Shown here: piece after piece, positions 35,076 to 38,058 of the stretch
How the letters are laid out: the number at the start of each line of letters is the position of its first letter
Numbering within the stretch: the stretch's first letter is position 1
NCBI GenBank assembly: GCA_024280035.1
Contig: JAJRQV010000009.1
Coordinates: 1 to 64,000 of the forward strand
Length of the DNA stretch: 64,000 nt
Reading direction: 5' to 3'
DNA from: Campylobacterales bacterium
GTDB lineage: Bacteria > Campylobacterota > Campylobacteria > Campylobacterales > Sulfurimonadaceae
Translations under genes and position numbers: made by a program
Notes under the pieces: model-generated
The model's input: only the letters and a program-made list of their open reading frames with translations
Databases searched by the model: none
What the model was told of the DNA's origin: nothing

Positions 35076-35738
35076 TCATCTCCAAATCACTTCTAAATCT
35101 GAAGAGAGTTTTGAGATATTAAAACTACTTTTTGGACTTTTTACTCCCCCGATTGTCTTCACATTTTCCACAAATCTTTGTAGGTAATACCTCCCTTTAT
35201 AACCTTTATTCTTTAAGTTATTTATCATTTCATTAATATCATCTACATTTAGCAAATCATTGTGTAAGGTAGTTCGTACTTCAAAATAGATATTTTGTTT
35301 TACCAAGAGTTCTAATGAGTGTTCAAAAGAGGAAAAATTCTTATTCTTAGTGATTTCATAAAACTTCTCTAAGGGAGCCTTATAATCTAAGGCAATATAA
35401 TCTAAAAGTTTATTATCAAGAAGCTCTTTTATCACTTTAGGATGGGTTCCATTCGTGTCGAGCTTAATCTTATAACCTAAGTCTTTTATCTCTTTAGCAA
35501 AACCGACTAAATCCTCATATAAAGTCGCTTCTCCCCCTGAAAGTACAACTGCCTCCAGCCTACCCACACGTTTTTTCAAAAATTCCAAGGCAAAATCCAC
35601 TGACTTTGAACCTTTTGAAAAAACGATATCTCCATTGTAGCAGTATTCACAACGCATATTACACCCTCCAAACCAGATTATCGCAGACAAATGATCAGGA
35701 TAGTCTAATGTACTAAAGGGGGTAATATCATAAATCAT
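35076..35738 (-). CDS. nrdG: Anaerobic ribonucleotide reductase activating enzyme (radical SAM)
   Basis: A 220-residue radical SAM protein. The 4Fe-4S site is CNMRCEYC (CxxxCxxC) in WFGGCNMRCEYCYNG, followed by the SAM-binding VVLSGGEAT. Size and the PFSTLDYPDHLSAIIWFGG start match the NrdG2/activating-protein group, which makes the glycyl radical on NrdD. It follows the split glycyl-radical ORF by 11 bases and nrdD in the same direction, so its target is evident from context. Confidence 0.9.
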   Translation of the reverse strand: MIYDITPFSTLDYPDHLSAIIWFGGCNMRCEYCYNGDIVFSKGSKSVDFALEFLKKRVGRLEAVVLSGGEATLYEDLVGFAKEIKDLGYKIKLDTNGTHPKVIKELLDNKLLDYIALDYKAPLEKFYEITKNKNFSSFEHSLELLVKQNIYFEVRTTLHNDLLNVDDINEMINNLKNKGYKGRYYLQRFVENVKTIGGVKSPKSSFNISKLSSDLEVIWR

Positions 35739-35749
35739 AAGTAACTGAC

Positions 35750-35917
35750 TTAATCACTACAACGAGGCGACTCAACAAACTGCTTACGTTCACCATGCTC
35801 ACCTTTTTTACCAATATTAAAACTCTCTACTGGTCGGTGATAACCCATTACTCTTGTGTAAACAATACACTTAGCTCTTTGACTTTTAACTTTTAATAAT
35901 ATCTCTTGATTACTCAT
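35750..35917 (-). CDS. Separate glycyl-radical domain of anaerobic ribonucleotide reductase
   Basis: A 55-residue ORF missed by length filters. ATG 35917 has AGGA 7 bases upstream. The sequence YTRVMGYHRPVESFN followed by GKKGEHGERKQF matches the C-terminal end of fused NrdD proteins, where RVxGY holds the radical Gly (here Gly25) and GKxxExxxR follows. The NrdD chain next to it ends before this motif, right after its CPKC metal site. The ORF is in another frame from nrdD with an intact stop and SD between, so it is a separate cistron and not a frameshift product. I infer that it docks on NrdD and carries the radical, much as GrcA (YfiD) does for pyruvate formate-lyase. Confidence 0.82.
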   Translation of the reverse strand: MSNQEILLKVKSQRAKCIVYTRVMGYHRPVESFNIGKKGEHGERKQFVESPRCSD

Positions 35918-35928
35918 TTTATTTTCCT

Positions 35929-38058
35929 TTAGTTTCGTAGGGCTTCTTCACTCAAAGCCAAATTATCACGCTTGTAATTTTCAACAAGCTCCTCATCACA
36001 TTTTGGACAAAATTCATGCTCACCATTAAGATAACCATGTTGGTCACAAATTGAGAAAACAGGGGTCACAGTAATATACGGCAGTCTGTAGTTAGAAATA
36101 ACATTTTTCACTAACTTACGACACGCCTCAGCGGAACTTATCTTCTCTCTCATATAAAGGTGAAGTACAGTTCCTCCCGTGTATTTACACTGAAGTTCAT
36201 CTTGTAAGTCCAGCGCTTCAAAAGGATCATCCGTATGATTAGCAGGGATTTGAGATGAGTTGGTATAATAAATATTATCATCAAAACCAGCTTGCAATAT
36301 GTGGGGATAACGCTTTTTATCTTCTTTGGCAAACCTATAAGTAGTCCCTTCTGCCGGCGTAGCTTCAAGATTATAAAGATTTCCCGTAGCCTCTTGATAC
36401 TCCACCATACGAGAACGCATATGCTCTAAAATCTCAATAGCAAAAGATTCTCCTTTTTTATCCGTAATATAAAGTTTATTATCAAAAAAATTTCTTATCA
36501 TCTCGTTCATTCCATTAACACCAATGGTAGAAAAGTGGTTGTTAAAACCGGGAAGATAACGTGAGGTATAAGGAAAAAGCCCCCTATCATACATATCTTG
36601 AATAAAAACTCGTTTCTTTTCTAAGGTCTCTTTCGCCAGTTCCATCAAATGATCCACCTGTTCTAAAAGCGCTTTTTTATCTCCCTTGTAGATATAACCT
36701 AAACGTGCCATATTAATCGTAACCACCCCTATACTTCCTGTCATCTCTGCTGAACCAAAGAGTCCCCCTCCACGTTTAAGAAGTTCTCTTAAGTCTAACT
36801 GCAAACGACAACACATACTTCGTACGTGACCAGGTTTATATGCTTCAGGGTTTTCAACAAGTTTTCCATCAATCCCTCGTATATATTGAGACCCAATAAA
36901 ATTTTGAAAATAAGACGATCCTATTTTTGCTGAGTTTTCAAAAAGAAGGTCAGTGTTTTCACCATACCAATCAAAGTCTTCTGTAATATTTACCGTAGGA
37001 ATAGGAAAGGTAAAAGGCTGTCCTGTTTTATCCCCTTCCGTCATAATCTCATAAAATGCTCTGTTAATCACATTCATTTCTGCTTGAAAGTCTTTATACG
37101 TCATATTTGTAAAGTTTTCAAGCCCTCTCTTTTTTGCCTCAAGTTTTAAAGAAGGATCATCCAAGTCTAAAAACAGATGTTTCTGATTCCGTGTTGGAAT
37201 CTGATCTTTTAAGTCTGTTGGAACGGTCCAATCAATAGTAATATTAGTAAATGGAGACTGTCCCCAACGTGCAGGAACATTAAGGTTGTACACAAAAGAC
37301 CGAATTGCTTTTTTAGTCTCAGAATAAGAGAGTTTATCTTTAAAAAGGTAAGGTGCCAAGTAGGTATCAAACGAAGAGAAGGCTTGTGCCCCTGCCCATT
37401 CACTCTGTAAGATTCCCAAGAAGTTTGCCATCTGCCCAAGGGCTTCTCTGAGATGAGAAGGGGCTTCAGATTCCACACGACCACGTACCCCATTAAATCC
37501 TTCATCTAGAAGTACACGTAAGCTCCATCCTGCACAATAACCCGTTAAACAGTCTAAATCATGAATATGATAATCTCCATTTCTATGAGCATATCCCTCT
37601 TCTTTAGAATAAATTTTATCTAACCAATAATTTGCAATCACCTTACCTGCTGAGTTATTCACTAAACCTGCATTAGAATAGCCCGTATTAGAGTTAGCCT
37701 TAATGCGCCAATCTGTTCCATTAATATACTCTTCTACTGTTTGAACGGCATTAATGTAGGTAGTATCTTCATTAAACCCATGGGTATGCTCACGTTTCAT
37801 CTTATGCATCAAACGGTACAGCATAAAAGACTTCATTACTTCAAAATAACGTGCCTTATACAGCTCTTGTTCAATTAAATCTTGGATATCTTCTACCGCA
37901 GCTGCACGTTTGGATTTAAGTTTATCTATGACTCTAAAAAAGACAGACGTATCATAAGAGGTATTCTCACTCTTAAATGCTTTTTTAATGGCATCTTAAA
38001 TCTTATAAGGGGCAAACTCTTCACTCTGACCATTTCGCTTTAAAATTTGCTCTAACAT
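35929..38058 (-). CDS. nrdD: Anaerobic (class III) ribonucleotide reductase large chain, in-frame TAA at codon 21, lacking the glycyl loop
   Basis: 709 codons. From ATG 38058 the frame gives an ATP-cone start (LEQILKRNGQSEEFAPYKI), then TAA at codon 21 (37998-37996), then DAIKKAFKS and the rest of the cone and the reductase barrel without damage. Other ATP-cones have Glu, Gln or similar here, so a single G-to-T or C-to-T change explains the stop. Without readthrough, the first inner Met (37836) would lose the cone and its allosteric control. Reductase motifs include RSMCCRLQLDL and GSIGVVTINMARLGY. The C-terminus has a metal site (CDQHGYLNGEHEFCPKC) but no RVxGY radical loop, which lies in the next ORF. 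Confidence 0.88.

Follow-up and report, generated by a model that had tools for sequence, protein, structure and literature searches.

Where does a class III ribonucleotide reductase (RNR) keep its radical glycine when the catalytic chain stops short of the loop that should carry it? This question is raised by an nrdD gene on the minus strand of the window, i.e. the whole stretch of 64,000 nucleotides of Campylobacterales DNA analysed here. The large, catalytic subunit (35929..37836, minus strand; 635 residues from the first ATG past an upstream stop) matches PRK08270 with 1024 bits over model positions 78-655 of 684, and the Pfam family NRDD (PF13597) with 542 bits over positions 2-538 of 562. 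It has the catalytic core expected of the class: the invariant YC residues, the SMCCR finger-loop motif of the thiyl-radical cysteine region (residues 340-344, 36805..36819, minus strand; invariant in 32 relatives), and the residues of a Zn-ribbon motif of the form CxxH...CPKC (residues 597-613, 35998..36048, minus strand), for which the T. maritima motif CxxxHx6CxxC served as comparison (PMC4493059). As the preliminary description had it, the protein ends beyond this Zn site, 22 residues past CPKC, and it lacks the RVxGY loop that class III RNRs carry C-terminally in this chain; the PF13597 match stops accordingly at position 538 of 562.

The glycyl-radical loop, TRVMGYHRPVESFN, is instead encoded by a separate ORF (35750..35917, minus strand), the small-subunit gene, of which the position, strand and sequence proved exact on re-check. 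Its complete product of 55 residues is MSNQEILLKVKSQRAKCIVYTRVMGYHRPVESFNIGKKGEHGERKQFVESPRCSD, with Gly25 (codon 35843-35845) as the predicted radical residue. PF13597 is the only Pfam family matched by this product, at positions 531-562 and with 26.6 bits (cut-off 26.2); the Gly_radical family of the pyruvate formate-lyase type, PF01228, is not matched. The own ribosome-binding box, own ATG and different frame ascribed earlier to this ORF were all confirmed: it starts at ATG 35917, 11 nt from the nrdD stop and out of frame with nrdD, behind an AAGGA ribosome-binding site (35925..35929, minus strand, identified from the sequence). Since this box overlaps the nrdD stop codon (TAA, 35929-35931), translation of the two genes may be coupled. 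The next gene after the small ORF encodes the radical-SAM activase NrdG2 (35076..35738, minus strand; 220 residues, TIGR02495, 209.7 bits, above cut-off). A second complete nrdD, named beforehand as a finding that would speak against a two-part enzyme, was looked for, and no other NRDD match occurs anywhere in the window genome, a draft of 107 contigs. The class I large subunit NrdA is also present in this genome.

A feature missed in the preliminary description lies at the other end of nrdD. The reading frame opens upstream, at ATG 38058, and this 5′ extension (37837..38058, minus strand) encodes an ATP-cone (MLEQILKRNGQSEEFAPYKI*DAIKKAF...) that is broken at codon 21 by an in-frame TAA (37996-37998). 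Relatives show KIEDAI, KIKDAI or KIQDAI where the window has KI*DAIKKAF, codon 21 being mostly Glu, Lys or Gln in them. Given this stop, and the absence of nrdD from five sampled genomes of the window's own genus, the window copy is possibly decaying or erroneous: the interruption may reflect loss of the ATP-cone, decay, a nonsense mutation, use of an internal start or a sequencing error. The conclusion on the split is untouched by it.

The split itself is far from confined to the window. NRDD was found in 62 of 121 genomes of the same family, and the small piece is present in all 59 of those with a near-complete large chain, the remaining three being fragments at contig ends; in the family loci that were read directly, the two pieces are separate ORFs. 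Scanning named genomes yielded 582 relatives, of which the best 80 were examined; these were ranked against a reference that was itself a split protein, which favours split forms in the sample. A separate large nrdD stands beside the small gene in 78 of these 80 and a fused gene in none, with nrdG in the locus in 78 and directly after the small gene in 70. Most of the best 80 belong to Pseudomonadota (Pseudomonas, Stutzerimonas, Thiobacillus, Duganella, Ottowia, SUP05/Thioglobus), a few are MAGs from other phyla, and Cupriavidus is also among the named split loci. An even draw from the class of Pseudomonas yielded about 20 split forms in 25 matches. Six genomes (G067, G038, G059, G030, G062, G007) seemed to hold fused forms; the loci among them that were read directly (L010 of G059, L018/L202 of G067, L019 of G030, L021 of G038) are all split, the open-frame reading having run through stops. 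The search for the same split in related genomes, suggested in the preliminary description, was thus successful, and the outcome feared there, that all orthologues would be fused, turned out the opposite way, with the split conserved across a large clade. What has to be abandoned is the view of the split as something unusual: the layout is common, occurring in hundreds of bacteria, and the small gene is already known to databases: in NCBI annotation it appears as a second 'nrdD'.

Conservation extends to the small ORF as such. In the 39 relatives whose standalone small ORF was compared, the ATG is retained, and an AAGG-type box precedes it in nearly all. Values of pS 0.76 and pN 0.13 for the core of the ORF in these 39 relatives indicate that it is under purifying selection and represents more than a chance reading frame. 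RVMGY is retained in the small chain. Nearly all small chains (L003-L061, L070-L149) also share a conserved Cys located 8 residues ahead of the Gly (RxxC-x-V-[YW]-TRVMG); this Cys is missing from some fused and some viral forms.

Nor is the small gene always found next to nrdD. In the Sulfuricurvum-like loci L150, L151, L152 and L157 it lies about 6 kb from nrdD-nrdG, adjoining nor or NnrS genes, and is separated from nrdG by genes for a cytochrome c, a TonB receptor, a Crp-type regulator and the cytochrome-cd1 nitrite reductase nirS. In L153 and L154 a single cytochrome gene stands between nrdG and the small gene, which in L155 lies upstream of nrdD. A Holosporaceae MAG (G427) has the large chain on one contig and the small gene with nrdG on another. 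Second, lone copies of the small gene occur in a Sutterella MAG and a gammaproteobacterium (L201, L195), and an Allochromatium vinosum plasmid (L066) carries the small gene without the large one.

These displaced, upstream, other-contig and lone small genes bear directly on two explanations that would do without a separate subunit, and exclude both frameshift and read-through as a general explanation. An ordinary fused nrdD, split by a sequencing or assembly frameshift or broken as a pseudogene, would fit the draft state of the window genome with its 107 contigs, the shift between the two frames and the in-frame TAA in the ATP-cone of the same gene. It would not account for the occurrence of the same split in single-contig genomes and in many genera, for small ORFs lying kilobases away from or upstream of nrdD, for the ribosome-binding site of the small ORF and the purifying selection on it, or for its annotation by NCBI as a separate gene; with conservation and displaced genes both against it, error or decay as the source of the split is ruled out for practical purposes. 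The re-sequencing named in the preliminary description as a possible refutation has an indirect answer in complete genomes and in the displaced small genes. Synthesis of a single polypeptide, whether through read-through of the stop or through programmed frameshifting from one ORF into the other, would find some encouragement in L003, L005, L010 and L052, where the ORFs are in frame and separated by a single stop. However, genomes differ in how the ORFs are placed relative to each other (a different frame, one frame with 1-3 stops, an overlap or a gap), the intervening stops are TAA, TAG and TGA, sometimes two or three in succession, and a ribosome-binding site and ATG are kept at the small ORF in most loci, in addition to the small genes located elsewhere or upstream. 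On these grounds one-chain synthesis was rejected as very improbable.

In a tree of 59 large chains, the split enzymes from Campylobacterota and from Pseudomonadota share a clade (support 99), outside of which fall the fused enzymes of Chloroflexota and Actinomycetota. Fused L049, L050, L053 and L069 are nested within this split clade, a further fused row, L191, being basal with a placement not settled in the tree, and a grouping of the split rows as a single clade is rejected (AU test, p 5e-38). The nested fused forms and this rejection together indicate that the two pieces were joined or parted repeatedly while forming one enzyme. One old split with later re-fusions would be the simplest reading of the tree, and repeated independent splits the alternative. 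Two further arrangements were observed: a split small chain of another type (YSRVVGYLRPVQNWN, L244) occurs in Chloroflexota, and the Actinomycetota fused NrdD of L223 and L224 carry an extra C-terminal domain resembling glutaredoxin or thioredoxin (TRTCPNCKHAAAQMDEAGI).

We propose, with a probability of about 0.9, that these genes encode a two-chain class III RNR, composed of a large NrdD and a separate glycyl-radical chain of about 55 residues and activated by NrdG. The large NrdD would hold the barrel, the finger-loop cysteines and the Zn site, and the small protein would supply the C-terminal glycyl-radical loop, docking into the barrel presumably as the C-terminal loop of fused NrdD does. 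NrdG, acting in trans, would put the radical on Gly25 of the small chain and so start turnover. Oxygen cleaves glycyl-radical chains at the glycine, and a likely consequence of the split is that such damage would hit only the cheap 6-kDa chain, which could then be replaced by resynthesis or by supply from another gene copy or a phage. Of the two-part reductase advanced in the preliminary description, the core, two parts with the radical glycine on a chain of its own, is strongly supported by the single nrdD, the clade-wide split, and small genes that are transposed or stand alone in phages; radical, activation and exchange are parts that we continue to infer. An AlphaFold model of a pseudo-fusion, in which the stop of L010 was read through to give a single chain, has a mean pLDDT of 84 (81-93 in the small-chain region), and its best PDB matches are the class III RNRs of P. 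copri, T. maritima, S. thermophilus and T4. The predicted geometry is that expected from fused homologues and, coming from one chain, is silent on two-chain docking.

The small protein might instead be an accessory or rescue factor only, the truncated large chain using some other radical source. Stand-alone extra copies (L195, L201 and the A. vinosum plasmid L066) could be taken this way, as could the genome of L243, which has both a fused NrdD and a stand-alone small gene. Yet class III enzymes require a glycyl radical, and almost every split genome has a large chain devoid of a glycyl loop of its own, with the small ORF never missing, which leaves a purely accessory role improbable.

Comparison with known systems helps to place the two-chain enzyme. 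Fused NrdD (PRK08270/NF006126, PF13597; T4, E. coli, T. maritima) has the same core, SMCCR finger loop, Zn ribbon, RVxGY loop and NrdG activase, whereas here the loop forms a protein by itself, encoded by a gene that has its own start and ribosome-binding site. GrcA/YfiD and Y06I of phage T4, cofactors of pyruvate formate-lyase, are likewise small stand-alone glycyl-radical proteins, which serve a large enzyme in trans as the small chain would, and are also phage-borne (PMC12338860); the 55-residue ORF, a small protein with a glycyl-radical motif and a gene of its own, is GrcA-like in this respect. However, GrcA is of the pyruvate formate-lyase family and the small chain of the NrdD family, and GrcA rescues an enzyme possessing its own glycyl domain, whereas the large chain here has none, so that the small chain is expected to be indispensable. 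The class II NrdJa/NrdJb of Pseudomonas is also a two-polypeptide RNR (PMC4520616; PMC9669993), but of a different class, and NrdJb bears an IscU-like/zinc-finger C-terminus rather than a radical glycine. Phage nrdD genes divided into two or more coding parts (Aeromonas phiAS4, Lactococcus 949, c-st; PMC3653736) are cases of intron, intein or unexplained interruptions elsewhere in the gene, and not of a detached radical subunit conserved over hundreds of genomes. On plasmid pHG1 of Cupriavidus necator H16, the order of large gene, small gene and nrdG is the same (NCBI WP_011154155, WP_011154154 and WP_011154153), and nrdDG of the pHG1 type is not described as three-part: a paper on C. metallidurans gives NrdDG as Rmet_5137 plus Rmet_5139, with the intermediate number skipped. 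A review on the origin of RNR lists 'Glycine in enzyme' (PMC4390871), and searches of the openly accessible full-text literature found no description of a class III enzyme that is split or has its radical subunit apart.

The small ORF is easily overlooked, and reconstitution from such bacteria with NrdD and NrdG alone may therefore fail. A point against the two-chain reading is an early study that reportedly detected no class III activity in extracts of Pseudomonas. The nrdD of P. aeruginosa would itself be split, judging from its congeners; its NrdD is listed at 76 kDa (PMC12284477), and a plasmid with nrdDG complemented an nrdD mutant (PMC4860495). Functional support in vivo is indirect: C. 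necator H16 has the split form on pHG1, and nrdDG of this locus was reported as essential for complete denitrification (PMC2864759). With the radical on a dissociable chain, questions hidden in fused enzymes become accessible to test, such as how NrdG gains access to a buried glycine and how the loop travels from activase to barrel and back, as well as repair of oxygen damage by swapping a 6-kDa part.

The layout in bacteria, together with lone copies in phages, hints that this part may be swappable. IMG/VR gave 133 viral relatives of the small chain, and in the best 80 of these (L247-L326) each contig has a lone small ORF of 44-130 residues (e.g. L298:2636-2776, L294:5899-6141, L250:6001-6135), no large NrdD within 6 kb and no nrdG-like ORF in the locus. 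Whole viral records of 10-108 kb, possibly fragments, contain one small-chain match only, the large chain being absent from 47 of 47. Neighbouring genes encode portal, terminase, tape measure, integrase and head-tail adaptor proteins, and in L298, a phage of Campylobacterota type, holin and endolysin stand beside the small gene. The viral small chains, which belong to phrog_4132 (labelled 'unknown function'), resemble those of their likely hosts, with 35 of 37 residues identical for the SUP05 type and 36 of 37 for the Campylobacterota type. A separate viral scan that used the whole enzyme found other contigs encoding it, in complete fused form in 47 of 80 and as split sets of large and small genes in 17 of 80. 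Among GenBank phages, the small protein of the window found no match, and two phage-type queries only two weak ones. An N-terminal cysteine-rich extension (PCAHLIE...C...CxxCAAYSPGL) precedes the loop in viral L264, L266, L288, L291, L292, L294 and L300.

These lone genes suggest that the viral small subunit may be a GrcA-like spare part for host NrdD. It is tempting to go one step further, and we lean slightly towards a scenario in which an exchangeable radical subunit evolved and phages of denitrifying and sulfur-oxidising bacteria carry only this subunit to refresh the host enzyme, with activation by host NrdG, thereby sustaining dNTP synthesis in the infected cell under low or fluctuating oxygen. 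The phage small subunit would then be the RNR counterpart of T4 Y06I/GrcA, and the phage copies suggest viral use of the small part to control the supply of host DNA precursors in oxygen-poor habitats. A candidate for a true GrcA-like spare part in a bacterium is the stand-alone small gene YSRVVGYLRPVQQWN (L243:2291-2500) of Chloroflexota genome G851, the one with a fused NrdD; its neighbours are cysS and an unannotated ORF resembling a membrane protein.

Some peculiarities of individual loci were also recorded. Open frames of about 1000 residues, with a long in-frame insertion in the split large NrdD, occur in L130, L144, L209/L246, L210/L245 and L331, and these insertions are probably inteins. 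On plasmids of Thiothrix fructosivorans (L067, L160) and Bradyrhizobium (L064/W03), the large nrdD is frameshifted or broken with the small nrdD and nrdG intact, a second intact set being present in the case of Bradyrhizobium. Kistimonas (L104 / G429) has, besides a split nrdD set, a second, fused nrdD of the E. coli type, accompanied by a radical-SAM gene of its own, about 3 kb away.
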